A DNA stretch of 64,000 nt from Taxawa tesnikishii (nom. ined.) (Eukaryota; Ascomycota; Dothideomycetes; Dothideales). Below, in pieces: positions 2,395 through 63,008 of the stretch (position 1 is its first letter; each line of letters starts with the position of its first letter). Position numbers and translations under genes: made by a program. The stretch lies in NCBI GenBank assembly GCA_030247885.1, contig JAPDRO010000008.1, forward strand, positions 186,001-250,000. The letters run 5' to 3'. Under the pieces are notes generated by a model, which searched no databases, was not told the origin of the DNA, and worked only from the letters and a program-made list of their open reading frames with translations.

Positions 2395-5300
2395 ATGGGC
2401 CTTCCTGCGAAGATGACAGACGCAGTAGGAGGTGCACCGAAGGCCAACGGCCATGTCAATGGCGCACCAAGTTCGTACGCTGCCAAGTTCAATCTGGCGT
2501 CTCACTTCATTGGAGGCAACGAATTGAGCCAGGCTCCCCGTCGAAGGTCAAGGACTTCGTCGCTGCCCACGACGGACACACGGTCATCACAAACGTGAGG
2601 AGCTCCTCCAACGCATCGACTGACGGCAGGCACGCTGACTAGACTAGGTTCTCATCGCCAACAACGGTATCGCTGCAGTCAAGGAGATCAGATCGGTACG
2701 GAAATGGGCCTACGAAACGTTTGGAGACGAGCGGGCCATCAAGTTCACGGTGATGGCCACGCCCGAGGATCTGGCAGCGAACGCGGACTACATCAGAATG
2801 GCTGACCACTATGTCGAGGTACGTTATCGCTGCAAGAGAAGGCACAATTGGACATTGGCCGCCTGAGCAGCTTTCTGACGGGTGCGGAACAGGTACCAGG
2901 TGGCACCAACAACAACAATTACGCCAACGTGGAGCTCATCGTTGATGTTGCCGAGCGTATGAACGTCCATGCAGTGTGGGCTGGATGGTGAGTACAAGAA
3001 AGTTGAGCGAGAAGTGAAGGGAGTGCTGACGTCCTGTAGGGGTCACGCCTCTGAGAACCCAAAGCTGCCCGAATCCCTTGCTGCATCTCACAAGAAGATC
3101 GTCTTTATCGGTCCTCCAGGCTCTGCTATGAGATCGCTGGGTGACAAGATCTCGTCCACCATCGTCGCCCAACACGCCAAGGTTCCTTGCATTCCATGGT
3201 CGGGAGAAGGCGTGGACCAAGTCAAGATTGGCGCAGACGGAATCGTTACCGTTGAAGACCACATTTACGACAAGGGTTGCACACACTCGCCCGAGGAGGG
3301 TCTTGAGATGGCCAGGAAGATCGGCTTCCCCGTCATGGTCAAGGCCTCGGAAGGTGGTGGTGGTAAGGGTATCCGTAAGGTTGACTCTGAGGAGAACTTC
3401 GCCCAACTCTACAACGCGGCTGCTAGCGAAATTCCTGGTTCCCCTATCTTCATCATGAAGTTGGCTGGCAATGCCCGGCATCTGGAAGTCCAGCTGCTGG
3501 CTGATCAGTATGGAAACAACATCTCCCTGTTCGGCAGAGACTGCTCCGTACAGCGTCGTCACCAGAAGATTATCGAGGAGGCCCCCGTCACCATCGCCAA
3601 GCCCGCCACGTTCCAGGCCATGGAGCGTGCGGCTGTCAGCCTCGGAAAGCTGGTTGGTTACGTCTCCGCGGGTACCGTCGAGTACCTGTACTCGCACGCC
3701 GATGACAAGTTCTACTTCCTCGAGTTGAACCCTCGTCTTCAGGTCGAGCACCCCACCACCGAAATGGTCAGTGGTGTCAACTTGCCTGCTGCTCAGCTGC
3801 AGGTTGCTATGGGTCTTCCCTTCACCGCATCCGTGACATTCGCTTGCTCTACGGTGTGGATCCACACACTGCCACCGAGATCGACTTCGATTTCTCCAAG
3901 GAGGGCAGTCTGCTCAATCAGAGAAGGCCACAGCCCAAGGGACACACGACCGCCTGCCGTATCACTTCCGAAGATCCCGGCGAAGGTTTCAAGCCCTCCA
4001 GCGGTACCATGCATGAATTGAACTTCCGCAGTTCGTCCAACGTCTGGGGTTACTTCTCCGTCGGTACCGCCGGTGGTATCCACAGCTTCTCCGACAGCCA
4101 GTTCGGTCACATCTTTGCCTACGGTGAGAACCGTTCCGCGTCGCGGAAACACATGGTTGTCGCTCTGAAGGAGTTGAGCATCCGGGGTGACTTCCGCACG
4201 ACAGTCGAGTACCTGATCAAGCTACTGGAGACCCCTGCTTTCGAGGATAACACCATCACCACTGGATGGCTGGATCAGCTCATCTCGAACAAGCTGACCG
4301 CAGAGCGTCCAGACCCAATGGTCGCTGTCATCTGCGGTGCCGTTACCAGGGCGCACATTGCCAGCGACATCTGCATGACCGAGTACCGCACCAGCTTGGA
4401 GAAGGGTCAGGTGCCCTCCAATGACGTCCTCAAGACCGTCTTCCCCGTGGACTTCATCTACGAGGGCCAGCGGTACAAGTTCACCGCAACCAGAGCCGGC
4501 TTGGACAGCTACCACCTGTTCATCAACGGATCCAAGTGCTCGGTCGGCGTCAGGCCTCTGTCTGACGGCGGTCTTCTCGTCTTGTTGAGCGGCCGCAGCC
4601 ACAATGTTTACTGGAAGGAGGAGGTTGGAGCCATCCGTCTCAGCGTTGACAGCAGAACCTGCATGCTTGAGCAGGAGAACGACCCAACCCAGCTCCGCAC
4701 ACCGTCGCCTGGTAAGCTCGTCAAGTTCCTCGTCGAGAACGGCGAGCACGTCAAGGCTGGTCAGGCCTTCGCCGAAGTCGAGGTCATGAAGATGTACATG
4801 CCCCTGATTGCGCAAGAAGACGGTCTTGTCAACCTGATCAAGCAACCAGGTGCTACCCTCGAAGCTGGTGATATCCTCGGTATACTGGCTTTGGACGATC
4901 CATCTAAGGTCAAGTCTGCTCAGCCATTCCTTGGCCAGCTTCCAGACCTCGGAGCTCCTACTGTCATGGGTAACAAGCCACCACAAAGGTTCACCTTCCT
5001 TTACAATACCCTCCGCGACATCCTGCAAGGTTTCGACAACCAGGTCGTCATGCAGCAGACTCTGAAAGAGCTTGTCCAGGTTCTGCGTGATCCTGAGCTT
5101 CCTTATGGCGAGTGGAACGCCCAGGCTTCTGCCCTTCACGCGCGTATGCCCCAAAGCTCGACTCCACTTTCGAGCAGATCGTGGAGCGTGCGCACAGCCG
5201 TGGCGCAGAGTTCCCTGCCAAGCAGCTTCAGAAGGCTTTCGACCGCTTCTGCCAGGAGAGCCTTCAGGGCGCTGGTGACGCAGACCTCCTCCGCACCAAC

Positions 5301-8300
5301 CTGGCACCATTGCTCACTATCATGACTCAATACAACGACGGTCTAAAGGCACACGAGTACGGTGTCTTCACCAGCCTTCTCGATCAATACTACACTGTGG
5401 AGTCTCTCTTCTCTCATAGGCAGGCTAGGGATGACGAAATCATTCTGCAGCTGCGTGACCAGAACAAGGACAAGGTCGCCAATGTTGTGCACACCGTCCT
5501 TTCTCACACCAAGGTCAACGCCAAGAACAACCTTATTGTGGCCATCCTCGACACCTACAGGCCTAACAGGCCAGGTACCGCAGGCGTTGCCAAGTACTTC
5601 CGCCCCGCTCTTCGCCAACTGGCCGAGCTGGAGTCTAGGGCCACCGCTAAGGTTTCACTCAAGGCTCGTGAGGTCCTTATTCAGTGCGCTATGCCCTCTC
5701 TTGAGGAGCGTACTTCCCAGATGGAGCATATTCTTCGTTCCTCCGTTCTCGAGTCCAGATATGGCGAGAGCGGTTGGGACCACAGAGAGCCAAACTTCGA
5801 CGTCATAAAAGAGGTCGTCGACTCTAAGTTTACGGTCTTCGATGTCCTGCCCCAGTTCTTTGCTCACCAGGACCCCTGGGTCTCTCTGGCTGCTCTCGAA
5901 GTCTACACTCGTCGCGCTTACCGTGCTTACCAGCTGAAGTCCATCGACTACATTACCGAGAATGACGTTCCTTACGTCCTGTCTTGGGACTTCGCTCTCC
6001 GCAAGATTGGACAGTCTGAGTTCGGTCTGCCAGTTACCTCTTCTCACCCGTCCACCCCTGGCACTCCGGCCGAGCGTGACCACATGGGACGTGTGCACTC
6101 TATCAGCGACATGTCTTACCTGGCCAGTCGCACCGAGGCCGAGCCTACTCGCAAGGGTGCAGTCGTTCCAGTCCAATACATCGACGAGATCGACGAGTAC
6201 CTTTCCAAGGCCCTTGAGGTCTTCTCGCTCCACGGCCAGACTACCAAGTCGCGCGGTTCCAGCGCCGGCTTGATGGCGGACCTCTCGAGACAGCGGAGAC
6301 CAGCCGCCTCGACAAAGGTTGAGAACACTGATGAGCTCACCGGCGTGTGCAACGTCGCTGTCAAAGACGCTGAGAGTGTTGATGACAAGGAGATCCTCTC
6401 TCGCATCCTTCCCATTGTTAACGACTACAAGGAGGAGCTCTTGGCTCGCCGCGTCCGCCGCGTGACCTTCATTTGCGGCAAGGACGGCAGCTACCCTGGC
6501 TACTTCACCTTCCGTGGACCTACCTACGAGGAAGATGAGAGCATCCGTCACAGCGAACCTGCGCTCGCCTTCCAGCTTGAACTCGGACGTCTGTCCAAAT
6601 TCAAGATCAAGCCCGTCTTCACCGAGAACCGGAACATCCACGTCTACGAGGCCATCGGCAAGGGCCCCGAGAACGACAAGAGGTACTTTACTCGTGCCGT
6701 TGTCAGACCAGGTCGTCTGCGGGAGGATATCTCTACCGCTGAGTACATGATCTCCGAAGCGGACAGGCTGATGACCGACATTCTCGACGCGATGGAGATC
6801 ATCGGCAACAACAATTCTGATCTGAACCACATCTTCATCAACTTCTCATCTGTCTTCCCTCTTCAGCCACACGAGGTGGAAGAGGCCCTTGCTGGCTTCC
6901 TTGACAGATTCGGCCGCCGTGCTTGGAGACTTCGTGTCACTGCTGCTGAGATCCGCATTATCTGCACCGACCCCAACACTGGCGAGCCGTACCCTCTGCG
7001 TGTGATCATCACCAACACCTACGGCTTCATCATCCAGGTTGAGCTGTATGCTGAGCGCAAGTCCGAGAAGGGCACCGAGTGGGTGTTCCAGAGCATTGGT
7101 GGCACCACCAAGATGGGCTCCATGCACCTGCGTCCAGTCTCTACTCCTTACCCTACCAAGAGCGCTCTTCAGCCAAAGAGGTACAAGGCCCACATCATGG
7201 GCACTCAGTATGTCTACGACTTCCCGGAGCTCTTCAGGCAGGCCATTGAGAATAGCTGGAATCAAGTTGTCGCCCAGCACCCACAGATGAAGGACAAGAA
7301 GCCTGTTCAGGGCGACTGCATTGAGTACAGCGAGCTTGTTCTCGATGATACCGACAACCTGATCGAGCTCCAGAGGGATCCTGGCAGCAACAGCATCGGT
7401 ATGGTCGGATGGATCATCACCGCCAAGACGCCAGAGTACCCACGCGGCAGGCGCTTCATCATCGTTGCCAACGACATCACCTTCCAGATCGGTTCCTTCG
7501 GTCCCCAGGAGGACAAGTTCTTCTACAAGTGTACCGAGTTGGCCAGGAAGCTTGGAATCCCTCGTATCTACCTCTCAGCCAACTCCGGTGCTCGCATCGG
7601 TATGGCTGAGGAGTTGATACCTCACTTCTCTGTTGCCTGGAAGGATCCACAGAGGCCAGAGGCTGGTTTTGACTACCTCTACCTCACCCCAGAGAAGAAG
7701 GCTCGCTTTGAAGACGGCCAGCTCCGCCACGTCATCACCAAGGAGATCAAGGTCGACGGTGAGACCAGGCACCAAATCACCACCATCATTGGTGCTAAAG
7801 ATGGCCTGGGTGTTGAGTGTCTGAAGGGCTCTGGCCTCATCGCCGGAGCTACCTCGCGCGCTTACGAGGACATCTTCACCATCACCCTGGTCACCTGCCG
7901 CTCCGTTGGTATTGGTGCCTACCTTGTCCGTCTGGGCCAGAGAGCCATCCAAGTAGAAGGCCAGCCGATTATTCTGACTGGTGCCCCGGCCATCAACAAG
8001 CTGTTGGGTCGCGAGGTTTACACATCTAACCTTCAGCTCGGTGGTACTCAGATCATGTACAAGAACGGTGTCTCTCACATGACTGCCACCGATGACTTTG
8101 AGGGTGTCCAGAAGATTGTTGAGTGGATGTCCTTCGTTCCCGACAAGAAGGGCGCTCCAGTGCCAATCTCACCTGCTGCTGACACGTGGGACCGAGACAT
8201 TACCTATTACCCACCCCAGAGGCAACCCTATGATGTGAGATGGCTCATTGCTGGCAAGCAAGACGACGACGGCTTCGCCTCTGGCTTGTTCGATAAGGGA

Positions 8301-9471
8301 TCCTTTGAGGAGGCTCTTGGTGGATGGGCTCGTACCGTTGTCGTTGGTCGTGCTCGCCTTGGTGGCATCCCTATGGGTGTAATTGCTGTCGAGACTCGTT
8401 CGGTTGAGAACGTTACCCCTGCCGACCCTGCCAACCCTGACTCCATGGAGGTGATCAGCCAGGAAGCCGGTGGTGTGTGGTACCCAAACTCGGCCTTCAA
8501 GACCGCTCAGGCCCTCCGCGACTTCAATAATGGCGAGCAGCTGCCCGTCATGATTCTGGCCAACTGGAGAGGCTTCTCCGGTGGCCAGCGTGACATGTAC
8601 AACGAGGTTCTCAAGTACGGTTCCTACATCGTCGATGCTCTGGTCAAGTACGAGCAGCCCATCTTCGTTTATATCCCACCTTTCGGTGAACTTCGTGGTG
8701 GTTCATGGGTAAGTCGTTGCCCATCGGCTCTGAAAGGATTCTGCTAATGCATCACAGGTCGTCGTCGATCCAACCATCAACCCGCAGTACATGGAGATGT
8801 ACGCTGATGAGGAGGCTCGCGGTGGTGTCCTCGAACCAGAAGGTATCGTCGGTATCAAATTCCGCAAGGACAAGCAGCTAGAGACCATGGCCCGCCTGGA
8901 CACAACTTACGGCGAGCTTAAGGCCCGCCTTGCCGACAAGTCCCTCTCGACCGAGCAACAAACTGAGATCAGAGAAAAGATGGCCCAGCGCGAGAAGCTT
9001 CTTCTGCCTGTGTACATGCAAATCTCCCTGCAGTACGCCGATCTCCACGACCGTGCCGGCCGTATGCAGGCCAAGGACACGATCCGCATGCCTCTGCAGT
9101 GGCAGCAAGCTCGTCGCTTCTTCTACTGGCGTCTGCGCCGCCGTCTGAACGAGGAGTACGTCCTGAAGCGTATGGCCGCCTCTTCGTCCAAGGAGCTCGT
9201 GTCGAGGTCCAACAACCTCAAGACACTCGAGGCCTGGTCCAACATCCCCAAGTTTGCGACCGACGACAAGGCCGTCGCCATGTGGTACGAGGAGAACCGC
9301 AAGGACGTGCACGGCAAGATCGAGGCCATGAAGACGGACAGCATCGCCTACGACGTCGCTGCCCTGATGAGGAGCAGCAAGGAGGGCGGTCTCAAGGGTG
9401 TTGCTCAGGTCATGAGCATGCTGCCCATCGAGGAGAAGCAGGAGGTGCTCAAATATCTGTCCAAGGCATAG
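2395..9471 (+). CDS. ACC1: Acetyl-CoA carboxylase, multifunctional (five exons)
   Basis: This enzyme carboxylates acetyl-CoA to malonyl-CoA, the committed step of fatty-acid synthesis in the cytosol. Exons are 2395-2594, 2648-2818, 2893-2987, 3040-8708 and 8758-9471; the four introns are 49-74 bp. After frame correction the sum gives 2283 aa, the usual length for fungi. Order of domains: biotin carboxylase with ATP-grasp ([16 protein letters not shown] near residue 68; Gly-rich [13 protein letters not shown]), biotin carrier with EVMKM (biotinylated Lys about 740), the long central region, and the two-part carboxyltransferase (residues about 1500-2200). The frame breaks three times by one missing base, each at a homopolymer: CCCC 2536-2539, CCC 3818-3820 and AAA 5153-5155. 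The missing residues are exactly those conserved in the family (for example APPSKVKDF), so I read these as sequence errors in an essential gene. The start at 2395 puts M in front of a poorly conserved leader; a second Met lies seven codons in. Confidence 0.97.
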
Positions 9472-10321: not shown

Positions 10322-11788
10322 TCATGGCCACCAGTTCATCCGTTTGTAACTCTCTATTACTCGTTCGACTTCATCTTTGGTAATTCTCTCGTGGGTGTAT
10401 CTGGTAGACTGCGGTTAGTCGAACAGCGCATAGGAATCTTGTTTGAGGAACACGGCCGGATGGGTACCTGAAACCAGTCGTCCTCTCAAACTTTCCACCG
10501 TCGAGACTCAGATCGTTGTCTCTGAGCAACTCCTTTTCCATGAACGGCGTCAGCGGACTGGCTCCGCCCTCTATGCCGGCCTTTTGCTGCATCTCGGCCC
10601 ACGGGTCCAGGGTATCGTCGTTGACGTCGTCAACAACGTGTTCGAGGTTCAGTCTTGCAAACGTGTTGATCAGGGTGCCCTGGAATCCCGTCTCGATCTT
10701 GAACAAGTCTTTGATGATGGCGGCCATGGTCGCCTGGTTCGTATTCCCCTGTCGACGATATTGAACGCAACTCCGCTGCTAATGGATCCTTTCATTGTGG
10801 GTGAAATGGGCGTCGTGGGCGGGCTCAGCGTCGCTGCGTCGGAGTCTCCCTTGGCCTTCCATTCCGCAGCGGCCCAGCACGCGCGCGCCACGTCCTCGAC
10901 GTGCGCTGTTGCTGTCCGTAAATCGCTGCTCCACAGCCACTTCATCTCCTTGCCTTGGTCCTGATATACCCTCGCCAGCGCCATCTGGGTCCCCAGCCAG
11001 CCTCCGGCATACGGTCCATACACGTTCGCGAGACGCAGAACCACCAAGGGCAGGTCGGGGATCCTTGCCAGTTCCTCCTCGGCCGCGAGCTTCCACTTGG
11101 CCTGCCGGTGGGTTGGTTTGAGCTTGTCGTTCTCTTTCCGCGGCGGGTCGCGCTTCGCGTCGTACACAGATCCCGTACTCAGTTCCACGAATGCTTTCAC
11201 GCCCCGCTTTGCTGCCTCTTTGCCCGCATTTGTACTCAAGTTGAAACTTCGGAGTTTGTAGACTTCGTCATCCTGCGAGAAGCGCGTCTCTCCGCCGCAG
11301 TTGAAGACGTAATCGAATTGTCTGGGATTTCCATCCGCGGCGGGCTCGAGGTCGAAGATGCGCGAGAGCGACTGGGGTCGCGATGCGTCGGCTTGCAGGT
11401 GTAGCGGCTTGCAGGCGGAGAAGTGTTCGGGCGCGAGCTGGGCGAGCTCGGGGAGCTGCTTATCGACTATGCGGAGGGTGCTGGCGAGGTTGTTGTTCTG
11501 GATGTGGGTTGCGAGGAAGCGACCGATGTAGCCTGCGTTGCTGGGTCAGTCTGTGGAGATGTGCGGGGCGGGGGTCTGGTCTGTATGCAGCGCTGGAGGT
11601 GGGGAGAGCATTTGCGCGGAGAGGCGTGTGTATATGCGCTGCTGCATGCACATGGAGAATAGAACAGAGAGGGCGGTAAAGTAGGTGTGAGTACCGAGAA
11701 ACGGTGGAAGCATACCTAGTCCGCCTATGATGAGGACGGCGGGCTTTGGCTTTCCGTCTGCGCCATTGCTTGTTTCGCTGGCAGTCAT
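10322..11788 (-). CDS. NAD-dependent epimerase/dehydratase, extended SDR family (three exons)
   Basis: Minus-strand exons are 11788-11716, 11532-10468 and 10400-10322, giving about 405 aa. The first intron splits the Rossmann nucleotide-binding motif: GGLG is encoded before it and GYIGRFLATHI after it. Later features of the extended SDR fold are visible: FNCGGETRFS, then VELSTGSVYDA with the active-site Ser region, then LRLANVYGPYAGGW. The usual catalytic YxxxK is not obvious; the corresponding stretch reads RQAKWKLAAEEEL, so the Tyr seems replaced. The C-terminus, KDEVERVIESYKRMNWWP, is only reached through the last short exon. One base is missing in a homopolymer (CCCC 10746-10749, plus strand); adding it joins VDRGN to the rest in frame. 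The substrate cannot be deduced. The family is confident; whether it is catalytically an epimerase is open. Confidence 0.85.
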
Positions 11789-14515: not shown

Positions 14516-16103
14516 ATGGGTTCTGAACAATCTGCCTTGGAACAACAAACTGATAGCGGCCCAACAAGCCATCTAAACATTCCTGTCAACAGGGGTAAGT
14601 TCGTGGCCGTTGCCAATATAGACCCCTCGAGTGTACGCGAGCTAATACATAACCAGGACGTCGAACCCCTTTCTTAGAACACTTCGAATTTCGACAGCCG
14701 ACTTTAGGCAGACAGATGGAGGAGATGGAAAACGTACCTCGCCTTGCTTCCATTGGCGGCAAACCAGAAGGGGACGCAACAGCACAAAGTTCTCCGCCAA
14801 TATCCCTCGAATCGTCCATCTTCGAGGCAGCCTCGTCTGACGATGGCGATGAACCCTCGATGTCCACCTTCACATTGAAAGACGGAGAGTCCTTCGCAGA
14901 TACAGACATGCTGGATTATCAGCAATACATTCAAATTACTGTGTTTCTCTTCATAACTAGCCATGCAACCTTCTCCGCCGACACCACGCCTTCGCATGGC
15001 TACTTCGGCCGCATGAAGACGGTGGCAGAGGAGTGTTTTCTCCCACCGACCCACCCATTTAGCGATCTTGCCAACTTTTTGGGCAGCGTGAGCGTGTTCT
15101 TAGGAACCCTCAACCTCGACACATTCTTCAAGGAGAGATGTCTTTGGCAGATCGTTCTGGGCGGCTTCAGAGACATGTCGGCGATGTACATGAACAACAG
15201 AGCGGAGGCAGTGCTGCGACGCAAACCACCAGGTGGACACGCCAGAGCAGAACCGGGAAAGGTGTGGTCGACGTACCAGTGGCACATGCTGCGCGAAATG
15301 CTATACCAGATCCGCATCCAGGAGATGAGGGGTGCGAGACCGAAGAGAGACGTGGTTCCAATCGACGGAGTTATGAACATGGCCGGATGGATCGAGCGAG
15401 AGGACCGCAGGGAATGGGACTTCCATCAGTCCGCCAAGCGCGAGGTTTCGAGATACCTTGCCTGGTTTTCCTTGCCGATCGCCGAGAAGATCAATCAGTT
15501 GGACCAGGCCTTGGACTTCCTCGAGAATCGCCTTCCAGCTTTGCAGGCGACCGAGGAACCGCGTGAGGCCACAGAGTTGGAGAGAGTAGCTATGGGGAGC
15601 ACTGGGGAGCAATGTGCCGACTTCTTCCACCTGACAACCCTTCGTGGCTGGATCGAGAGCAAGGCGTGCTGAACACCAGAAAGAAGGAATGCAAGGCAAA
15701 TCCGGCGTACTCAGGCTACCCATTAGACCGTCACTACCGCATCCTTGCACCGTATGACCGATGCTGGCCAGACGAACTCAAGGAGTCCTCGCAACCAGTT
15801 GATATCACTTCGGAGGCAGCTCTTCCGAAGTTGAAATTCGACAGTCCGATGGAGTTAATGCCCATAGAGGATCGAGACAGCCGTTGCTTCGCGGCCGAGG
15901 TGCGAAAGCTGGGTATGCATGCGCCCAGAGATGGAAGCCTAAGGGAAACCAAGCATACCTCGACGGGAAGAAAGGACTCCAAGGTCGAGGACGTCGAAGC
16001 TGCTGCGGTTGCGGTGGTTGGACGTCATGTGCGCGCCAACACTGTGACCCTCGAGAACCCGGCAAAGCCCAAGGTCCGCAAGCGTGCCGAGTCGACATCG
16101 TGA
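14516..16103 (+). CDS. Fungal orphan protein, about 508 aa (two exons, one frame slip)
   Basis: Exon 1 is 14516-14594 (ATG GGT TCT), intron 14595-14656 (GTAAGT...CTAAT...CCAG, 62 bp), exon 2 14657-16103. The splice joins NIPVNRG to RRTPFLEHFEF in frame. A single missing base, most likely in CCC 15638-15640, is needed to pass from the first long frame (ending at 15672) to the second (open from before 15612); the corrected coding length is 1527 bases. I do not recognise the family. Visible features are an acidic, Ser-rich N-terminus, a hydrophobic helix-rich centre around residues 120-200 (YIQITVFLFI, DLANFLGSVSVFLGTLN), a long charged helix around 260-350, and a Lys/Arg-rich C-terminus ending KVRKRAESTS that could be a nuclear signal. 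No transmembrane topology or enzyme motif is clear. Confidence 0.65.
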
Positions 16104-17231: not shown

Positions 17232-18073
17232 ATGCCCGCAGTAAGTTGTCCCTTTCTCCATCCATGTTCCCGTACGAAGAGAGAAAAAAACAGAACTTTG
17301 TCGCTTGTTGTCAAACACACCCTAACGGAAAGTCTTCCACCACAGATCAAGGAGATCCTCTTCGACTGCGACAACACGCTCGTTCTTTCCGAGGAGCTCG
17401 CCTTCGAAGCCTGCGCCGAGCTGGCCAACGAGATCCTCGAGAAGAACGGCAAGTCCGAGCGCTACACCGGCCCTGAACTCCTCGCCGACTTCGTGGGTCA
17501 GAACTTCCGTGGTATGATGGTGTCCCTGCAGAAGAAGTATAACTTCGAGATCCCACCGGATGAGTTCAACAACTACGTCGACCGCGAGTTGGGCAAGGTG
17601 ATTGAGACGCTGGAGAAGAAGGCGCAGCCGTGCGTGGGCAGTATGGAGGTGCTGGAGGAGCTGTACAAGAGCAAGAAGTACGGACTCGCCGTCGTCTCCT
17701 CGTCCGCGTTGTCTCGTGTTCAAGCATCCATCAGGAAGGTCGGCCAGGACAAGTTCTTCCCCAGGAGCACGTCTACTCCGCTGCTACGTCCCTCCCCAAG
17801 CCGACGAGCAAGCCTGACCCAGCAATCTACCTTCACGCCTGCAAGGAGATTGGCGTCCAGCCTGGCGAGTGTGTTGCTGTCGAGGACAGCAGGTCTGGAG
17901 CCACGGCTGCGAAGAATGCCAAGATCCCACTTATCGGATACGTGGGCTCGTATGAGGAGGGAGACCAGCAGAAGAAGATGGCCAAGATGCTGACGGAAGA
18001 GTGTGGTGCTATTGTTGTCATGCACCACTGGAACCAATTCTTCGACTGTCTTAAGAAGGTCGAGGAGTCGTGA
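17232..18073 (+). CDS. HAD-superfamily hydrolase (phosphatase-like), two exons
   Basis: Exon 1 is only nine bases (ATG CCC GCA, 17232-17240). The 105-bp intron 17241-17345 follows, then exon 2 to the stop at 18073. Corrected length is 245 aa. The HAD signatures are in order: motif I DCDNTL (Asp10 nucleophile, Asp12 acid/base; note Asn where many subfamily members have Gly), motif II VVSSSALSR, Lys of motif III in SLPKPTSKPDP, and motif IV VEDSRSGATAAK. The helical cap between motifs I and II (FEACAELANEIL to about residue 90) is the C1 type of the beta-phosphoglucomutase/2-deoxyglucose-6-phosphatase group. One base is missing in CCCC 17759-17762; restoring it gives FFPQEHVYSA. Substrate unknown; sugar phosphates are the usual guess. 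Confidence 0.88.
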
Positions 18074-20279: not shown

Positions 20280-21451
20280 ATGAAGTACAATCTCGCCTGC
20301 GCTGCCCTTGCGGCCTCGGCTGCTGCGGTTGCCATTCCTCAGGACTTCAGCTGGGACGACGTTGAAGAGGCCGAAGCCGTTGGCATTCCAACTGTCTCCA
20401 TCCCAATCGTTGATATCCCAGCATCGACTGTCATCGCATATACACCTTCTGCCACCCTTGCCGCGATCCAACAGGGTGCTGCCCAGAATGGTGTTAACCA
20501 GAAGCGTGACCTGGTTGGGCGTGATGTCTGCCCAATCGCAGCCTCCGACGACACTGCGGATACCTTTTCGGCCAACAATGCTTTCAGCAACGCCGCCATC
20601 TCCGCTGACACCCCAGATGGCTACGTTCAAGCCTTCAGCAACCTTCAGGGTAGTCCAAGCGCCATGGGCTACATGGGTTACTCCATCCTTGACGCCTACG
20701 ACGTCTTGACTTGCTCTCAGCGTTGTGATGCCATCTACGGATGCGCTTCTTTCAATATTTGTCAGTGTTACCCTCACCCTCCATTTCTGTTCATTATTGA
20801 CGTTTCCAGACTTCGAGCGCGACCCTCAGGTCGACCCAACCGACAGCTGCACTAACCCCGCCTCCGTTACCAACATCAAGGTAAGCACCACCATGTCTGC
20901 CGGTTCAGCACCGTACTAAGTTCGTATAAGTGTGTCTACTGGGGTGCTCCAATCAGCACCGAAAGCGCTGTCAACAACGGCCTGTATAGCGAACAATTCC
21001 ACGTGGTCATTGCAGGATCCAACGGATATGTGAACCGCACCATTGAGCCTGCTGCCGGCTACAGCCAACCCACCTACCTCGGCCAAGCCGCCATCAACGC
21101 CCCGAACGACTGCAACGGCGGCTACACCTACATGGGTGTCAAGATCTGGACTGACGGTCCCTTCGACGCCAGTAAGTGTGCTGCTGCCTGCTCTGGTGTC
21201 TCTGACTACAACCGCGCCAATCCACCTAGCAACGGCGCCGCCCCCAGACCTGCCAGTTCTTCAATACCTACGTGCTTCTGAGAAACGGCACCTCCGTCGG
21301 CCAGTACTGTGCTATGTACAACGAGACCTGGTCCGCCAGCACTGCCACCAACGTCGGTCAGTGGCGTGGCTACGATCACTACACTGTTGACTACAGCTAC
21401 GCTTTCTCCAACACCACTGATCCTGGTGTCCCGGTTTGCGCCTCCAACTAA
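20280..21451 (+). CDS. Secreted cysteine-containing protein with Kex2-type site (three exons)
   Basis: Exons 20280-20760, 20810-20880 and 20931-21451; introns 49 and 50 bp; about 357 aa after correcting one missing C in CCCCC 21241-21245. Residues 1-19 are a clear signal peptide (MKYNLACAALAASAAAVAIP). NQKR at 73-76 looks like a Kex2 cleavage site ending a propeptide. The mature part has two similar Cys-containing stretches: TCSQRCDAIYGCASFN, continuing across the intron into YFERDP, and later SKCAAACSG followed by TCQFFNTYVLLRNG. This spacing recalls PAN/apple-like modules of fungal extracellular proteins, but I cannot prove it. CVYWGAP and several NxT/S sites suggest a glycosylated extracellular protein. 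Not recognisable as a characterised enzyme; candidate cell-wall or host-interaction protein. Confidence 0.8.
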
Positions 21452-22580: not shown

Positions 22581-25500
22581 TCAGTATCTGCGCTGCTGCC
22601 CATACGGTTGCCCGTACTGCTGCCCATGTTGCTGTCCCTGCCCCTGTTGTTGTCCAGCAAAATAGTTCGCTCCGTAGGCCTGCTGCGGCGTAGCCTGATA
22701 CGGGCTCGCTGGATTGCTCCACCCGCTACTCTGTGCGTACGACTGCGGACTTTGAGTGTACATCTGAGCGCCCTGGTTCATCATCGGCATCACTGCCTGT
22801 CCGAAGATCTGCGGCATCCGCTGTGGCCCAGGCGACATGATCCCATTGAACTGGTAAGTACCAGACTGCTGTGAGTTCATGAAGTTCGCATAGGCCTGCT
22901 GTTTCAGCACTTCTTGCTGTTGCTGTTGTGCGTGCTGCTGCTGTTGACGATACTGTGCCTCCATCTCAGCTTGTGCTTGCTGCTGTTGGCGAGCAGCGAT
23001 CGCCTGCTGCACCAATCCGCTGCGCATTCCGTCTTTGATGGCTTGCTTTTCGCGCTCCCGGGCTGCCAATGCTCCGACTAGACCTGGCGCTTGCGCTTCT
23101 TCCGCTTGCTTATCCTTACCAGCGACGTTGATAAGTGGAGACCCGGTGGCTCGAGCTACGTGCATTTGCTCCCGTGCGGAGAGGTGCTGGGATTGTGTAG
23201 AATGCACAAGTCCACCGCTTGGGCTTGAGGGGTTCATCAGCATGCCAGCATTACGTGATTGGGATCTGCTCGGAGGAGTGCGCTGAGCCATCTGGTTCCA
23301 GTCTCCGGACGGGTTGCGACTGATTGGTGGCGTGTTTCCCGCTGAGCGTCGTTGAGGGAGCGTGGTGCCAGACGGTTGTCGGTTGTGGCTTTGCATAGGA
23401 GAGAATGGACGTGTTTGAGTAGGAGGCATAGGCGAAGCTGCCAACGCAGCCCGGTATTGGACCCACTGCTCGGGCGTGAGAGTTTGGCTGGCACGTTTGC
23501 TTCCACCTGGAGTAATGGCGCTTGGTTGCCAGGCGAGACTTCTGCGTTTCTCCTGTCCAGAGAGGATAGCTTCGCCACCTGAAGATGGGGGGCCAAAATA
23601 GGAATTCCTTTTATTATCGCTAGGGCTCAGGCGAGAAGCTGACCTGTGGTGTCCATGCTGTTCCTCGAGCGGACTCTCCTGTCCAAACCCGCCGGGGGTG
23701 ATCGTGCCACTCGTTGGCGGACGGTTGAGATTCGGCTTGTACGTATACGTTGGACCGAAATCTACGGTTGGCATTGCGTCACCGTCTGGAGTGTTGTCGG
23801 TATGGTAAGTGTCGAAACGGCTTTTGGGACGCTCTGATGTTTCCTGTCGAGTGAACTCGGGATCGCCCACTGTCTTAAGCCTGCCAGCTCTCGGCCTCTC
23901 CACGGACTTCTTTGGGGACGCGCTTCTGGCGCTCTTGGTACTTGCGTAATCCACAGAATCCTCAGTGACGTTACTCGCCATGGTGCTTGCTCGTGCCGAG
24001 GATTGTTCCAGGATCTGCTCAAGGACTTCTTGGTCGATCAGGTGATTGCGAAGACTGCCGTTGCTTGAAGGAGAGGATGGTTCAGATAAAGGGTCTGCTG
24101 GCAAAGGTCGGCTAGGAAGAGGCTTTCGAGATATATTACTACCATCTGCGCTAAAGGCGGGCGATATGGATCGGGTACGCTCCTGGCTTCCTGCCGGCAC
24201 AACAAGAAGAGGTTCGTGGCTGGCGCCACCCAGCTGTGGTACATGGCCATGCTGTGGGACTGGAGGGGGCGGTGCAGTATCTTGTGGGTTTAGGGGTGCA
24301 AATGCGCCGTCGTTGACAAAAGGAGAAGCAGGTATAGTAGGTAGACGTTGCTTGGTAGGAGATGCTGAACGGGTTCTCTGCGAAATGTTTACCAACCCTT
24401 GATTGCGCGAATAGGCGTCAGCAGGCTCTCCATCTCTGTTGTGGTTGGCGTCGATACGAACATTTGCATGGGTCTCCTGACCCCTTTCGGGGTTGGGATT
24501 CTGTCTTGTAGCATCAGAAAGCTGCATGAGGGTAGCTGCATCCATAGCGGAGTTTGCTCTACGGAGCTCAGGAGCCTGATATGGTTGGTGCGCAGGTCTG
24601 GAATTAGGATTGTGCAGGAATGCAGGAGGTGAGATCACAGGAGTAGGAGGTGGTTGAGATGCCTGAAGATTGAGCTCTTCGAATGCAGGCTGGATGTTCA
24701 TAGGTGGAGGACTTTCTGGCTCCGACTCAACACGCTCGAGTGGCGCACCATACGCTTGTTGCTGGCCGATAGCACCTCCATGAGCTGGTGGCGGCGGCGG
24801 CAATTCAAAATCCTCAGGACGCTCTCCATAAGACAGCCGCGAAGGTGTTTCAGCCTGATAGCGTTTGTAGCCCATTGCATCTGAAGCCGACCTCTTGTGA
24901 CCTCCGGGACTTGCATTGGCGACAGGAGCGGTACCGACCCTCTTGGGAGGAATGATAGCATTATGCGCTGGGGCAGGCGATTGTCCACGGCTGACCGGAG
25001 AAGAGTCTGCTCCTGAGTCGCTATCGTCGAATTTGATAGTACTGCGATTGTTGAGGTTCAAGCTTGTCCTGCTGACGGTGTTGCGTCGCTGGCCAGCTCT
25101 GCCTCCTGGGCTGCCGCTCTCCACAGAGTTCATACGGTAGGAGGTAAGTTTTTCAGCTCTTTCCTCCACTGGCGCTCCGTCCATGACTGACTGCCTTCCG
25201 TGTGAATGAGCCCCGAAACATCCAGTATATCGAGGTAGCCGTAACGACGGTCCCTTGGCATGGCAAACATGAGACCGCGCTGGTCAAGAGTGTCTGCAAT
25301 CAGACGGTTTGGCCGTCCGTACATTGCGAAAGTGTCAAAGACGGGGAAGAGCCATCTCAACATCATCTCGAATCCCGTCACTGCTGGATGTACTTCCGGC
25401 ATGACAAACAGGAATCCTTCGGTGGTAGCCTCTGGGGTAGTGTGAATGGTAATCAAACCTTCCAGCTTGATGAGCGTCGACTGGTCGATGAGAGGTTTCG

Positions 25501-27687: not shown

Positions 27688-27747
27688 AACACACACACGC
27701 ACACACACACACACACACACTCTCTCTCTCTCTCTCTCTCTCTCTCT
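27688..27747. repeat. Compound (CA)n-(TC)n microsatellite
   Basis: About 30 bases of CA dinucleotides with one CG interruption, directly joined to about 27 bases of TC dinucleotides, 380 bases upstream of the BAH-PHD start. Likely length-variable between strains. Confidence 0.95.
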
Positions 27748-28126: not shown

Positions 28127-29515
28127 ATGGCTAAGCGCCGTGCGAGCGATACTGCACAAGCTACGAATCATCCGACTACACCTTCACATGCGCCACCCTC
28201 AAAACGACGCAAAACACTGCCAGCAAATACGGCTCTAGCCACTTCTCCTGCCACTCAGCAACCCAAGACCCCCAGTACCGCTCAAAAGTCGGAGACTGAG
28301 AAACTGACCAAATACTTTGAGCAGTGCGATAAGAATGGCAAACCCTATTTTATAGTTCAGTATGGGCACGCGGCAAAAGGGACAGGGAAGTCGAAAAAGA
28401 AGGCTTTAGGGGTACCATATGAACTCAAGCTGAACGGTACCAAATACTTGGAGGACGCCTACGTTGCCGTCCAGCCACCTGCAAGATGGAAGCAAATGAA
28501 GCACTACAACAGGTTCACGGGTATGTGAACTCAAAACCGCTTTGGACCTTACAGGGCTAAGTGACGAGATAGTCGGTGATCAGACAATCGCAAACGGGGA
28601 GGTTGTCCTTGTGCATCCGGAGGAAGACTCTGAAACAGACGGTAAAGGCGAGACAAATGGGGAGATTAAGAAAACACCGCTGGATGTCCCGCGACAGTGG
28701 AAAGCGCAAGTACACGAGACGCGCGCCCTCAACGAGAACCGTGTCTTCATTCTTGTGTCCTGGCTGAATCGGCCAAGCGACCTGCCGGGCGGAGGAGCTT
28801 CGTATCATGCGAAAAACGAATTGATACCCAGCAACGATTTCAATGTCATTGATGCGATGACGGTAAATGGGCGGCTAGAAGTTGTACATTGGGATGACAA
28901 TGACGACAATGTAGCGCCGCCCGAGGATGATCAATATTTCTGGAGGCAGATCTTCGACCGGGACACTCAAACGCTATCGGTAGGCAACAAATCCATGGGT
29001 ACAAGGGAGCAGCATGTGCAACGTCGCTGACAAGGCTACGCTGACAGAAACTTCGAACGGTTTGTGTAGATGAACAACCACACAATCCCGATAAGATGAT
29101 AGTTCAATGCAGCAACCCGCAATGTGGGTTGTGGCTGCACGACCAATGCATAGCTGACGAAGCGGCGACCCAAGCCGCCGCTGCGAAAACCAAAAAGCAA
29201 TCGGGACGATCTTCCACGGACAACACTGCCGTGACTAGTGCGATTGTTGTAGGAGGAGGAGCGGAAGCAGAAAAACCTGCTTTTGAAGGCGCCACAGCTG
29301 TCGGCAAGGCGGATGGGGTTGAGGCGTATGTGTTCATCAAAAGGACCAAGTCCGTGACACAGAAGGAGGATCAGACCAAAGACGAGGTTTTGGAAGCGGC
29401 TCCTGTGAAGAAAAACGAGATTATCATCATCGACAAGAGAGGGAAGAAGGAATCGCGGAGGTTGGAGCAGCTGAAGTGTCTGAAGTGTGGCACGGTTATT
29501 GAAGACGCCGACTAA
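28127..29515 (+). CDS. BAH-PHD chromatin protein (three exons; candidate EPR-1-like reader)
   Basis: Exons 28127-28520, 28555-28979 and 29048-29515, 428 aa, no frame correction needed. The N-terminus is basic with KRRKTL-type nuclear signals. A BAH domain spans roughly residues 95-275: YFEQCDKNGKPYFIVQYG, then VAVQPPARWKQMKHYNRF, then the hallmark ENRVFILVSWLNRPSDLPGG and NELIPSNDFNVIDAMTVNGR. After it comes a PHD-like zinc finger (VCVDEQPHNPDKMIVQC, CGLWLHDQCI); its last Cys pair seems displaced about 100 residues downstream to CLKCGTVI by an Ala/Lys-rich insert. BAH-PHD proteins of this order include the Neurospora EPR-1 and plant EBS/SHL readers of H3K27me3; assignment here is inference from domain order. 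Intron 1 is only 34 bp (GTATGT...TTACAG), unusually short. Nuclear location likely. Confidence 0.85.
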
Positions 29516-43905: not shown

Positions 43906-45120
43906 TCAGGAAGCGTCTCCGAAGACAAGCTCGCGTGGCACATCAGGCTTTCGCCTCAGAGCAACGAAGTACGCTTCCTTGGATTCCTGCAAAGTGTGAG
44001 TAACAGGAGTGGAAGCAGTTCTGACAAACAAGTCACATACACTCCGAGATGACTCGGGCTTCTCCCTGTGGACTTTGTCGAACAGCTTCCTCAGCCGCGT
44101 TTCGAATAGCTTGTCCTCGGCGCCCTGATAGAACTTGCAGAGGAAGTGACCTCCGGTTCGTAATGTGTCGTAACAGAACGTTAAGGCCGCCATGCAAAGG
44201 TCCTTCACGAGTGCACTGTTAGCCACCACATTGAACAAGTGCGGACGCCAGGATGTTCTGTACTCACCATACTACCAGCATGATCCCTGAAAGACATACC
44301 GCTCGTGTTCATCATCCTGTGATATGGGTTACTAACGCTCTTAACCCACATCCCCGTTGTCTGATCCCAGGGTGCTGACATGTCACTTAAAACTACATCC
44401 ACAACGCGTCCTTCTTTCTCATCGATCTCCTTCCTTGTCAGTTGCCTTCTCTGCTGACCCTCTTCCTTTGCCTCTTCCTTCCCCTCTCCCACCCTCACCC
44501 CTTGCCCTACGCCCAAGTCGGCACTCCGTTCCATCTCCACATATCCCTTGTCAACTTCCTCCATCTCTTCTTCAGTCACCCCTTCCTCTTCTTCCCCTTC
44601 TCTTAGCGCAAGCAACCCCTCTTCCTTGCCCTCCCCTCATTGGGTTCAACACATACCGCCTAACCTCCTCCCTCACCTTCTCGCTCAAGAAGTTACCTTG
44701 TATCGAACTTGCGCCTTTAGGCGGCTGCGCAGGTATAACATCAATGCCAATCACTCTTCCACCAGGGGACGTGCGGGTTACAGCGACCTGTGACCAGGAT
44801 CCAGGCGCATAGCCAAGGTCAATGACAGTTTGTCGGGGAGCAAACAGACGATGCTTTGTATCGAGTTCGAGTAGCTTGAAGGCGGCGCGTGATTTCAAGC
44901 CGGCAACTTTAGCGGATCTTGCGAAATGGTCACTGCCCTGACGGGTCTTCCAGCGAGTGGAAGAAGACGAGAAACGATGGGGAGGTGGTGTGGGTGTAGT
45001 GAGCACTTGCGGGTTAAGATATAAGGAAAGGGCTGTGGTAGGGAGGACCAAGTTCCGTGGCAGGCGAATGTATGACCGCCATGAGCGTAGCAGGTGCTGC
45101 GCCGGCGTGTCGAGGTGCAT
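43906..45120 (-). CDS. MRM2: Mitochondrial rRNA 2'-O-methyltransferase, FtsJ/RrmJ family
   Basis: Methylates the 2'-OH of a uridine in the large mitochondrial rRNA. Minus-strand exons 45120-44268, 44202-44041 and 43986-43906, introns 65 and 54 bp, 365 aa after correction. The N-terminus is a typical mitochondrial presequence (Arg/Ser-rich, RFSSSSTRW). The FtsJ core has the SAM motif VIDLGYAPGSWSQVA and a K-D-K-E tetrad in RAAFKLLELD, VVLSDMSAPW, FLCKFYQG and ESKEAYFVALRRK. Between beta strands 3 and 4 there is an acidic, Glu-rich insert of about 80 residues, longer than usual. Two single-base losses lie close together near 44636-44644 (C and G runs); correcting both gives VLNPNEGEGKEEGLLALREG. 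The second intron is stop-free and divisible by three. Divergent from the DUF1917 gene. Confidence 0.92.
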
Positions 45121-45387: not shown

Positions 45388-46374
45388 ATGTTACTATATT
45401 TGGTTGTCTCTCCTTCCTCTTCCATCATAAGTAGCTCGAAGATGCAGAATCGGCGGAAGCGCAGAGCTGCTCTGCAGGGCCGTCTTCACGAACGACTGTC
45501 TGAACACCGCAAGAAGCACGCCCTGGCATGCAAACTGGTCAAACCTCAACAGGTCCGAAAGCCTATTCTGCACAACCCCTACGAAGGCGATCTTATGGCT
45601 CGCCAGCTCCATAAATCAGTTAGCCATCTCTTGAAGCTCGTGCCACTTACAACAGCCATCACTTAAGGGCCTTGGATTTGGGTGGTGAATCCAATTGTTG
45701 AAGACAAGGGCAAAAGAAAGCAGCGCAGCGACGAAGGTGATGGTGAAGGTTTTGCGAGAGGCGGCTCGACTACAATCGCAGACGTCACAAGCAAGCAAGC
45801 CGCCATTGAGAAAACAACAAAAGGAATGCCTCAAGGATCAGCAACAAGGAAACCCAATCCTCTGAGAGAACAACTGAAAGAATCTCGCCTCAAGACCGCC
45901 GCCAAGTACAAGTGCACAAGCGGAAAGGCGAGACCCCCATCTTCACGACATATCCGCTCGACACTAAGATTGTCAAAGTGGACGTTCCTCCCCGACCGCG
46001 ACGAGCTCGCCCGAACCTGGAGGCTGGTCGCGGAAGGCGTTGTTGACGGCCGTCTGGGCACAGCCGCTACTCTGGCTACGCTGGACCCCACCGATCCGCC
46101 AGGCAAATCGCGACTCGTCTGCTTCTATACGGAAGACTTCTCTAATACGGAAGACGTTCGGAGAGTCTTGAAGGAGCTAGTCGAGACAGGCGTTGCTCCC
46201 AGGGAGGGTCGTGGCATCTACTACAGATGTGATGCCTATACGTATTTCGGCACTGAATCTGACAACCCATTCGGACCGAGGGCCAGCATCCACTACAGCA
46301 AGGACTTCTTGACCAGGAGCGAATCCATCAAAGAACGGAAGCAGCAGTCATCATTGCTCGATGCGTGGGAATGA
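45388..46374 (+). CDS. DUF1917 (UPF0696 / BLES03-like) protein with internal stop
   Basis: One frame runs from an ATG at 45388 to the TGA at 46374 but is cut by a TAA at 45664-45666. Family features stand on both sides. Before it: HNPYEGDLMARQLHKSV. After it: GPWIWVVNP, then SKWTFLPDRDELARTWRLVA, LGTAATLATLDP, RLVCFYTEDFSNTEDVRRVL and YYRCDAYTYFG, the core of DUF1917, an eIF4E-like fold of unknown role conserved from fungi to animals. No GT-AG pair removes the stop in frame. Given the many homopolymer losses in this window, clustered base-calling errors are possible, but a true nonsense change cannot be excluded. Uncorrected, translation would have to start again downstream (first good ATG about 45828), losing the family's N-terminal part. 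Confidence 0.75.
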
Positions 46375-50925: not shown

Positions 50926-52003
50926 ATGAGTCTTGTCCCTGCCACTCCAGCCAGTTTCCCGTATGCGGGTACGACGACAATGGGCGTACGTGATGATCCA
51001 ATGGTGTACGACCCAGCCACATTCGATGCCTCACTATCACCTACACGCACGAGCTGGTTCGAGTGTTTCTTGTCCAACTATAGCAACGACGAAGAAACCG
51101 CACTCGACGTCGATATGGCAGATACACCCTTTACTCACCCTCGGTGACCGCGACGACGAGCAACGGCAACATCGAGAATTTCATTTTCCACCGCTTCAAC
51201 GACCTTCCTCTCGAGCTGCGCACATGCATCTACTACATGGTGTTGATCGACGACGAAGAACACGATCTGGCCAGAATCAATCTTCCAGCGCTGCTCCTTG
51301 CCGGCAAGCAGACCATGTCCGAAGCTGCGCACATCTTCTACCATAATAGATATTTTTCTATCCGTATCGACATGAAGCACAACTACGACCACGTCTGGAA
51401 GAACCCCGAATGTTACGTTGACCTTTTCGTACCGGCCGAGATCTATCAGAAGACGCTCGCCCGCGCGGGCCTGGGCCTGTTCTCCGATATTGTACTGAGA
51501 CGGTTCCGATTTGAGGTCTACGACAGCAACAACGAGGTATTCGTCACCGTAGACTTTGAGCTGATATTTCAAGCGGTGTTCGCTGCTCTAAAGCGAACAA
51601 GCTGGATGGTATGCGCGTCGCGCCCGTCGAAGATGAGATGATCGACAACTTCAGTGACGCTTGCGCAACTGTCACAAAGTCTGCGCATGAGCGTCCGGAC
51701 TTCACCGGATACACGCTCCAGGACCTCAAGGCTCTGTCTGCTGCAGTCAAGATCCCGACCGACAGCCTTACGAAGTCTGCTGCGCCTGCTGTCGATGTCA
51801 ATGCCTTCAGCAATGCTCTCACTGCCTCTAACAATACTGTAGATGCTCTCGCCGCTACTCTGGACGCTACCGCCGCTCACATGAGCAATGCCACTGCTAC
51901 TGTTGATGCTGCTACCACTGCTCTTGACGCCATCGTTCTTGCTGCTGCAACCTCTGGTACTGCGGGCGAAATCACCAACCAGAGCGCCACTAGCACTGAC
52001 TGA
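50926..52003 (+). CDS. LPLELR (fungal F-box-like/2EXR-like) protein, two frame slips
   Basis: Starts ATG AGT CTT at 50926 and ends at the TGA at 52003, in three frame segments joined by single-base losses: one near 51140-51142 (CCC, HPSVTATTS) and one near 51590-51592 (AAA, ALKANKLDG). Corrected length is 359 aa. The centre has the motif common to many Dothideomycete proteins, FNDLPLELRTCIYYMVLIDD followed by INLPALLLAGKQTMSEAAHI and FYHNRYFSIRI, an F-box-like start followed by a beta-rich region. The C-terminal 110 residues are a low-complexity Ala/Thr/Asn-rich helix with a repeating DAL/DAA pattern (NNTVDALAATLDATAAHM). Such proteins are numerous and fast-evolving, and none has a firm function. 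Confidence 0.7.
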
Positions 52004-54872: not shown

Positions 54873-54954
54873 CCCGGAGTATCGAGTCAAAAGCCGCAAA
54901 CTCAAACCCCAAGCTCATCGGATCGGAGGGGACACGCTCGGGGATTGCCGGGAG

Positions 54955-55631: not shown

Positions 55632-56345
55632 TTACTTCGCCTTCCCTGGGGACTTCGCCCTTCCTGCTCCTGGGGATTTGCCCCTTCCTGGTCCCGGCGA
55701 CTTTGCCTTCCCTGGCGCCTTGTTCTGGCGGGGAGACTGACAGTTCTCAGTGTGTGTTTGCTCTCAAACTAGTAAAGGAGAAATGAGAATCAGTCAAACG
55801 AACCACGGAAATCCCGATCCCGGTCAAAGCATCTCTCGCAGTATCTCTCGCCGCATCCACAGCCTTTTGCGCATGTTGACCAAATGCAGATAGATCCGGT
55901 ATGTTGTCAGTTATTGTCTGGCTCAACTTCGAAATCTCGGACCCCTTTTCCTTGGATCCCTTGCCCTTGCCCTTCTCCGGGCTCTTGGCTACCTCCTTGG
56001 CCGGCGATTTCCCCCTGCTTGGCGTCTCCTCTCTGTTTAACCCCTCGTGACGGCTTTCCCCATGATCTTGTTCGTCGTCGGCTTCTTCGGCGTGGTTTTC
56101 TTACCAGCCACCTTTCCCTGCTCCACAGTCTTCTTCGTTGCCGCCTTTGTCTTGGTCGCAGCAGGCTTTTTCTTCACCACCTTCGCCTCTCCCTCCTTCT
56201 TTGACCTTTTGCTTGTTGCAGCCTTGGCCGTCGTCCTGGCCGGAGCTTTGGGCGTAGTTTCCTCTTTCTTGTTTTTAGCTTGTCTAGGGATGAGAGGACG
56301 CGTCCTGCCCGTGGAACCCTTCGGTTCCGCCGCCGCCGCCGCCAT
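55632..56345 (-). CDS. Lys/Ala/Pro-rich basic protein, histone-H1-tail-like (two exons)
   Basis: Minus-strand exon 1 is 56345-55807, intron 55806-55761 (46 bp) and exon 2 55760-55632; about 222 aa after restoring one base in the CCCC run 56041-56044. The N-terminal half is a run of Lys, Ala, Thr and Pro (KEETTPKAPARTTAKAATSK, KKKPAATKTKAATKK) like a linker-histone tail. The middle is a short helix-forming part (SKLSQTITDNIPDLSAFG, AQKAVDAARDTARDAL). The C-terminus repeats KSPG/AKSPGKAK, with SP sites of CDK type. There is no winged-helix H1 globular domain, so it is not a true histone H1. A nuclear or chromatin-associated architectural protein is the likely role, by composition only. Both splice choice and frame correction are supported by an exact codon count. 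Confidence 0.65.
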
Positions 56346-56983
56346 CTTCTTCTGTTCTTGCTACACGACTTTGAGAATGCTCCACGAGTCTCCGGGTCGA
56401 ACTAGAAAGCAGGTAGGATATCAGCCAATCATGCAAGACCGTGCAACGCTTCTACACAGAAGGGAGCATTCCAGTAGCTGCGACGTAGAAAGAGATACTC
56501 TAGAAAATCCTCTTCTGCCGCTGCTGAAGCTCGATGAGGTTGTGAAGAGGAGAGATACACTCAAAGAGTGCATTCGTCAACTGCTGAGCACCGTTTATGT
56601 GAAGTATGATGACGAACGAACATCACGTACCGTATTATAGACACACAAACGTTCGAGGCTGTGGAAGCACAGCAGGACGTTCGAAGCCCTCCTTGCGAAA
56701 GTGCTGATGTTATGTTGAGACGCGACAGACACGCGACAAGCAGAGGTGTGAGGCGGGCACAACAGTTGGAGGTACGTACCCGTATCACAAACCAACAAGG
56801 CATTCCACGCCAAGTTATACGAAAGACTGCATTATCTCTTGTCTCCGTTGATTAGACAGTATAGTTGTTTATGCCAAATTTCCCATCATCTCCTCTTCCA
56901 AGGAATGTAGAATAACGCCCTCAATATCCCCTCAACATTCCATTCATAACCCTTTTTTCCGACCCACCCGCTGTGTGACAACA
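56346..56983. other. Intergenic region
   Basis: Between the start of the basic protein and the 3' end of the glutamate dehydrogenase gene, both on the minus strand. No gene seen; ORFs are random. Confidence 0.55.
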
Positions 56984-60437: not shown

Positions 60438-62021
60438 GATGATGACTGAAGAAAGAGAGAGGTGAGGAGACCGTAAGAGGGTCTGTAAAGCTGGGTGAAA
60501 GATTCTGGGGAAGTAGCGTGAGCACGCAGCCTTTATAGATGGCGCATGAGGGGGTTTACCTGCGGATGCAAGAAGCGCTAGAGGAGCTTCGGTGAGGATT
60601 GCGGGGGCAATTACGAGAAGGAAACAAAGAAGAGAGGAACCTGGGAACGCCGTCGTTGGGGAAGACGAGGGACGGTGACGATGCGTGTTGACTGGGCGTT
60701 TTCAGGTTTCTTTGCAAAGACTTTATATGCGTCTGGGTCGCAGCAGCTCAGACAGGGTGCTCTCAGACGCTTGCCCGACTCGGCTCAGGCGTGCAATGGG
60801 AGCTTACTGATAAGCAAAGCTAGGATCACAGGTCTTGGAGACAAGAAAGCCACAGCGTGTCCTGTTGGACGGGTGGAATGGCACCAAGCTGCGTGCTCAT
60901 CGGTGTTGACCTTGGCTGATGCCTGTCCACGAGCAGAGAGGAACAATCTTTGGTGTGTTTTCTCAATCATCTCGGCTGTCGACGGCTTTGGAGTCTGCTT
61001 GTGTATATAGTACCTGGAACTAACCAGCACTAGATAGACCCTGTACCTGTACCTGATCGTCCGTGGCTTGGGCGCAGCAGCTATTTTCGGAGGCTCTCCC
61101 GCGCACAGCCCGAGCGAGCCATTGCAACTCCAGCTTGAGCAACGTCTGTCTACTGCTAGCAACAAACAGTACGAGGTCAGCTGCAACCAGACGCAATCAA
61201 CGACATCAACGACATCAACGTCTCTCTCCTTGCCAATTTCGCATGTCCACGTGTTGTATGGAATTTGCACAGCACCGATTGCCTACCCCTCATCGGTCCA
61301 GTCGGTCGCGAAGTCAATGGCGCGTGACGAAAACAGTGGGTGGTCAATTACCTAATTTCACGTAAAAGGCCTGCAAAGCGTGCCAATGGCGACATGCGAG
61401 GGGCTTGTGAGAGAAACATCAACATCTGTCCTCGGCCCCCTTTGCGAATGTCCCATTTGTGTATGCTGTCACGAAAGGCTTGTGTGGCCGTGTCGCAGCT
61501 GTCAACATAGAAAATCGTCGAATACTGCCGGTACCTATTCCAATCCTAACCTAGATCATTGCTGGAAATCCAACCCATCTTCGACGAAAGATCCAATTCG
61601 GACAACAGTAACACGCAGGGTTGCTATATCGAGCACAACTCTTTGATAATGCTTTCCTGTTCTGCTATGACACAGTAAAACCGGTTCGGTTGTTGCTGAC
61701 ATAGAGTATACACGACATGTTTGCTGGCCATTATGAACATCATCCCTATTTTCCTCGAATACATATCGCCAGTCGCCCATGAACGGCAAGCTGATAGCAA
61801 TCCCATGTAACTGCTAGATCCCGAATCCCTGACCGTACCTACGTCGAGAGATCCGCTCCAGGCCAGGACGTGGCTTCTACCGGGCACTCGGTGCAGGATG
61901 GATTTCCATGGCTGCGGAAATTACAGAAAACAAGGTGGTAATACACCTGGTGTGCTGCTGGCCCCGGAGTAGGTCATGTCGTGACACCGCAAAAGGCCCA
62001 GAGGGCAAGACGATAAGACCC
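60438..62021. other. Intergenic region upstream of GDH2
   Basis: About 1.6 kb. The first 300 bases are the GDH2 promoter (a CTTTATAG-like element near 60530). A nine-base CGACATCAA repeat sits at about 61195-61220. No coding frame is convincing. Confidence 0.55.
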
Positions 62022-63008
62022 TCATTTCCTGCTGAAGAACATGTCGTTGCTATTCTTCCAAGCAGCCTCCGCAATTTGCTCGACAGAGACGCCCTTTAGA
62101 CCGGCAACGACCAACGCGACACGGCTGATCAAACAGCTCTCGTTTCGCTCCTTGACCATATAACCCATCTCAAACTTGTCCTTCTTCTTCCTGGGGGCAT
62201 TGGAGGCGCATTCTTCAGGTAATTCTTCGCGACGTCGGAATTAGCGGGGATTTCGCCCCATGGCGCGTCTGTTTCCAGCTGCAGCCTGTCCAAGGGAATT
62301 GCCTTTACCATCTCGAGGGACTCTTCGTCCTTGAAGCTAAACCCGTTGACGCTGACGTCGAAGCCCATCTCAATCAAGGCCTCCATCTGGAACTTTGGCC
62401 CAACGAAAGAATGAACAAGGCCCCGGTGTGGCAATTTTGCAAGATACGGCTTGATGACTGTAACGAAATCGTCGAACGCAGCCCGACAATGAAGGAATAG
62501 AGGCAGATCGAGCCTGTGCTCTACGAAAAGATTCAGTTGTGCCTTGAATGCGGAGATCTGAGCTTCCTTGGAAGCCTTTGCAAGATGGTCGTAGTCAAGG
62601 CCGAGTTCTCCGAACGCCGCTAGCGGAGTCTGATCCTCCTTCAACAAATCTTGAACGACCCTTGCCATTTTCGCCAAGTAGTCCGGGTCTTCATTCGGTT
62701 CTAACGCATGATATGGATGAACTCCAACAGTCACGAAGCATTGTTCTGGATGCGACCGGGCAAGGTCAAGGTTGAAGTCGACGTCGTGTAGGGACATGCC
62801 AGTCAGCATTATCCTCGTGACACCGCTAACCATGGCTCGGTCAAGTACAGCAGGAAAGTCGGGCTCATGTTGTTGTTTCCCACGGTAGATACCGGCAAAT
62901 TCTCTTGCTGTCGCAGTGACGGCGACCTTGTAGACAAGTTAGCAGATGTGAAACCATTTTCATCTTGGATCGAAGGGTGCCCACATCAGCGAAGAGCAAC
63001 TTTTCCAT
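62022..63008 (-). CDS. TatD-family metal-dependent hydrolase (DNase), two exons
   Basis: Minus-strand exon 1 is 24 bases (63008-62985, MEKLLFAD), intron 62984-62927 (58 bp, branch GCTAAC), exon 2 62926-62022; 309 aa after restoring one base in GGGGG 62193-62197 (plus strand). TatD features: AGIYRGKQQHEPDFPAVLDR, MLTGMSLHDVD, VTVGVHPYHALEP, AFGELGLDYDHL (metal Glu), LPLFLHCRAAFDDFV, RGLVHSFVGP and LQLETDAPWGEIP. The N-terminal metal motif, normally DIGxNLTDP in eukaryotic members, reads DVAVTATAREF here, so it is either diverged or the first splice is wrong; the length match across that join is exact. Members act as 3'-5' exonucleases in DNA turnover and apoptosis-like degradation. The final block (KKKDKFEMGYMVKERNESC) includes the family's nucleic-acid-contacting basic patch by inference. 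Confidence 0.9.

Follow-up and report, generated by a model that had tools for sequence, protein, structure and literature searches.

The window analysed here, a stretch of 64,000 nucleotides, has the gene content of filamentous ascomycete nuclear DNA, with a single-chain fungal-type acetyl-CoA carboxylase (ACC1), a protein with the fungal PH-like domain PF25381, an NAD-specific glutamate dehydrogenase and short GT-AG introns. Its finer placement may be Dothideomycetes-like. No relative was found in a scan of genome contigs with one ACC1 piece as the query, and a scan of viral contigs with a piece of the glutamate dehydrogenase returned one locus, with a match of 17 residues. The window also includes two dinucleotide repeats side by side (positions 27689-27747; 16 copies of AC and 14 copies of CT), a gene with PF08939 (Bles03; 45667-46371) that neighbours the MRM2-like gene, and a gene with BAH and PHD-like pieces (sub-threshold Pfam matches). 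This last gene seems to require an intron of about 34 bases, recognised by eye (28521-28554, GTATGT...ACAG), which is shorter than the 45-base intron limit of the codon model used below.

Several genes of the window are read in pieces that lie in different frames (Table 1). The original prediction had described these frame steps as about fourteen one-base losses in at least eleven genes; its own list names ten. Five of the fourteen (three in ACC1, one each in a HAD hydrolase and a TatD DNase) are well supported, as homology flanks the step on either side. Another two, in the epimerase and secreted protein genes, are weak candidates backed by the codon model alone, and five show a net step equivalent to one loss with no homology across it. 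The remaining two were placed together in MRM2, where the net step has the opposite sign.

Table 1. Frame steps in the window, with net step, strand and the evidence or alternative for each
Gene and feature	Positions	Strand	Net step	Evidence or alternative
ACC1 (acetyl-CoA carboxylase), C run	2536-2539	+	-1	Junction of PDB alignments
ACC1, C run	3818-3820	+	-1	PDB alignments on both sides
ACC1, C run (5153 in the original prediction)	5149-5152	+	-1	5csk_A on both sides
NAD-dependent epimerase, run	10746-10749	-	-1	Codon model
Orphan gene, not localised (about 15638 in the original prediction)	15563-15672	+	-1	Intron alternative 15563-15657
HAD hydrolase, C run	17759-17762	+	-1	HAD_2 in two frames, codon model
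Secreted protein, C run	21241-21245	+	-1	Codon model loss
CAF120-like gene, A/T run	25149-25153	-	-1	Weak intron alternative 25187-25248
MRM2 (FtsJ-like), G/A-rich low-complexity stretch	44575-44660	-	+1 modulo 3	Three-frame reading
LPLELR (2EXR-like) gene, first step	51006-51145	+	-1	Intron alternative 51006-51121
LPLELR gene, second step	51537-51641	+	-1	Intron alternative 51537-51601
Basic low-complexity protein, run	56041-56044	-	-1	Three-frame reading only
TatD DNase, G run	62193-62197	-	-1	PF01026 in two frames, codon model

The three ACC1 steps are defined by alignments to known structures. At the first step, residues 9-42 of 5i6i_A are matched before the step (a weak match, E = 0.0095) and residues 42-61 after it, and the alignment sets the junction at 2535-2538. 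At the second, a match to residues 149-411 of 5i6i_A is followed in the next frame by matches that begin at residue 406 of 5i6i_A and at residue 386 of 5csk_A. The match to 5csk_A extends until residue 836 before the third step and resumes from residue 834 after it. Given that the alignments abut or overlap at all three steps, there is no space for an intron. A home-made codon model, which took its training pieces from the window itself and penalises gains and losses equally, calls a loss near each step (2521, 3827 and 5146); its positions can deviate by as much as about 15 bases, as the comparison of 2521 with the alignment junction illustrates. The open stretch of ACC1 reaches 1,216 codons, and after the last step both the coding signal and the homology persist for about 1,200 residues.

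In the HAD hydrolase, the Pfam family HAD_2 is matched over positions 1-122 and then, in a second frame, over positions 133-177 of 178; the two matches are 44 bases apart. We found no PDB match for the upstream piece, and the codon model calls a loss at 17760. In the TatD gene, PF01026 is matched over positions 12-211 and then over 215-252 of 253, the second piece being weak (E = 0.007). The PDB match of the upstream piece (8efg_A) extends as far as base 62201, and downstream the match begins at 62150, so that homology localises this step only to about 50 bases; the codon model calls a loss at 62190. The epimerase has a PF01370 match on its upstream piece and none on its downstream piece, and the loss is called only when the intron penalty is made stronger or introns are forbidden. 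In the secreted protein gene, for which no Pfam match was found, the modelled loss beats the intron path by 1.4 log units. The codon model thus weakly suggests a lost base in each of these two genes.

Five steps lie in genes where homology does not reach across the step: one in the orphan gene (no Pfam match found), one in the CAF120-like gene (where PF25381 is matched only by the upstream piece), two in the LPLELR gene, named after the label of the earlier reader and with a sub-threshold Pfam match to 2EXR, and one in the basic protein gene, where the codon model gave no frameshift. At the first four, the default path of the codon model takes introns rather than frameshifts, and some of these steps could be small introns that were missed earlier. 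The splice signals at all four score poorly beside those of most introns in the genes for ACC1, glutamate dehydrogenase and catalase, and we consider this explanation of them somewhat unlikely. It covers only these four steps and does not conflict with an assembly error at the other sites. Introns cannot account for the steps in ACC1, and at the HAD and TatD steps the intron paths are worse than the losses by 3.5 and 5.3 log units, respectively, on intron scores that are rough.

MRM2 is the one gene with a net step of +1 modulo 3, which runs counter to the -1 of the supported steps. PF01728 is matched on the upstream piece only, and no Pfam or PDB match was found for the downstream pieces. The two losses that had been proposed here fit the frames no better than a single gained base, and one gain, which requires fewer events, may be what occurred.

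The direction of the steps was also read from the codon model without guidance from the listed sites. It predicts 32 genes, and the 19 of them that score at least 8 contain six losses and no gains, a result with a one-sided probability of 0.016. The earlier statement that every change is a loss, with no clear gain, is insecure, since MRM2 has a net +1 step, which may be a gain. When frameshifts were implanted, the model recovered losses and gains with equal sensitivity (176 of 360 losses and 168 of 360 gains), and none was mistyped. As about half of the implants are found, silence of the model at a site says little. The model recovered 1 loss and 4 gains, each out of 40, in the CAF120-like gene, 2 and 1 in the TatD gene, and 7 and 5 in the orphan gene. 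Forbidding introns leads the model to call gains as well in several genes, all of them near introns of the default path. One further loss was disregarded, as it falls in a spurious antisense gene opposite ACC1 that scores 1.5. This gene derives from long open frames on the minus strand (2936-8702), which are probably shadow frames of the biased coding sequence.

The original prediction had placed the steps mostly in homopolymers. The association with runs was counted for the seven sites chosen as supported (the three in ACC1 and those in the HAD, TatD, epimerase and secreted protein genes), with the other seven omitted. Each of these seven can be assigned to a C/G run of at least three bases, and six of them to a run of at least four, compared with 21% and 4.9%, respectively, of random genic positions, which were taken from hand-drawn gene spans that include introns. 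Because placing the sites at runs favours an association, we made the comparison again at the positions that the model itself had called. Five of the seven sites then lie at C/G runs of at least four (again, 4.9% of random genic positions). The two that miss a run are both in ACC1, where the junctions defined by alignment contain runs of four and three bases.

The proportion of shortened runs rises with the inferred true length of the run. Over 8,470 bases of homology-supported genes, it is 0 of 130 C/G runs of three, 1 of 25 runs of four, 3 of 4 runs of five, and the single run of six. Over a wider coding set of 23,602 bases that includes the two weaker sites, the corresponding counts are 0 of 392, 1 of 62, 4 of 9 and 2 of 3. 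The wider set also contains six intact C/G runs that are five or six bases long, and under-calling would thus be frequent but not total. The density of steps is five per 8,470 bases, or about 0.06%. We also considered the depletion of long runs as proof of homopolymer compression and rejected it. C/G runs of at least five bases occur in the window at 0.44 of the first-order expectation, whereas in 50 kb of Escherichia coli K-12 they occur at 0.30, so the spectrum is not diagnostic. For A/T runs of at least five, the ratio of observed to expected is 0.63 in the window and 1.29 in E. coli, a bacterium being a poor control for a fungus.

At the five well-supported steps, three of which are in the one large carboxylase gene, a common sign, C/G runs, a rise with run length and families recognisable on both sides fit homopolymer-length errors, as expected of the unpolished, homopolymer-prone assembly that the original prediction had proposed. 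Mainly because of ACC1, we conclude from the sequence that the frame steps are very probably uncorrected errors of the assembly rather than features of the genome. The sequencing would have under-called short C/G homopolymers, roughly four to six bases long, and no accurate reads would have been used to correct the consensus. Every such miscall would drop one letter and split an intact gene over two reading frames; the real genome would then carry longer runs. A further argument for these corrections, that the exon sums are divisible by three once the bases are restored, is circular.

Errors of this kind have been described in long-read assemblies. In a bacterial MinION assembly, less than 0.05% of the sequence was in error; indels, mostly false deletions, made up 69% of the errors, they occurred most often behind runs of four to five bases, and genes were split (PMC12007338). 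The window resembles that case in its probable false deletions, which would split genes, and in its close error density (about 0.06%, compared with less than 0.05%). It differs in that deletions of A/T outnumbered those of G/C in the bacterial assembly (PMC12007338), whereas C/G runs carry the supported sites of the window. For nanopore-only fungal assemblies, the relevant passages of another report describe frame-breaking homopolymer errors that split conserved genes (PMC7500977), as in the fungal genome studied here, where homopolymer-length errors would likewise break genes. In those passages, however, over-calls exceed under-calls after polishing, while the supported steps here are under-calls (PMC7500977).

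It is very unlikely that the short runs are real, belonging either to a hypermutator strain or to a decaying duplicate genome in which intact second copies keep the essential functions. A lineage defective in mismatch repair, in which polymerase slippage shortens runs and the contractions are left without repair, is expected to show an equal dependence on run length, with most changes affecting a single base, and a mismatch-repair-mutant hypermutator lineage has been described in fungi (PMC5614558). Against such a lineage, ACC1 alone would carry three breaks, and its coding signal and homology continue for about 1,200 residues beyond the last of them. ACC1 is essential in yeast, and a haploid without an intact copy should not survive three breaks in this gene. 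We therefore regard real contractions in a repair-defective lineage as highly improbable.

If the genome were duplicated or hybrid and one copy were truly decaying, a broken ACC1 could exist alongside an intact one. Decay is expected to produce stops, larger indels and gains, as the original prediction had reasoned for stops and for mixed gains and losses, but only one-base steps are found in the homology-supported genes. The pieces are also open over long stretches, as in ACC1, and retain codon bias and homology to their families, which argues against pseudogenes. On this evidence, decay of a duplicate copy is exceedingly improbable. Programmed ribosomal frameshifting or editing of the transcripts could in principle restore the frame and rejoin the pieces. 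This would have to take place at seven sites, spread over five genes with no relation to one another and including three within a single gene, and by eye we see no common context beyond the run at the printed sites; we give this possibility practically no weight.

With assembly error as the preferred explanation, automatic gene calls made from this record probably split or shorten ACC1, the HAD hydrolase, the TatD DNase and others. Genes split in this way could pass for pseudogenes or for gene loss. The value of the finding is thus a warning for annotation, and it is of little biological interest in itself.
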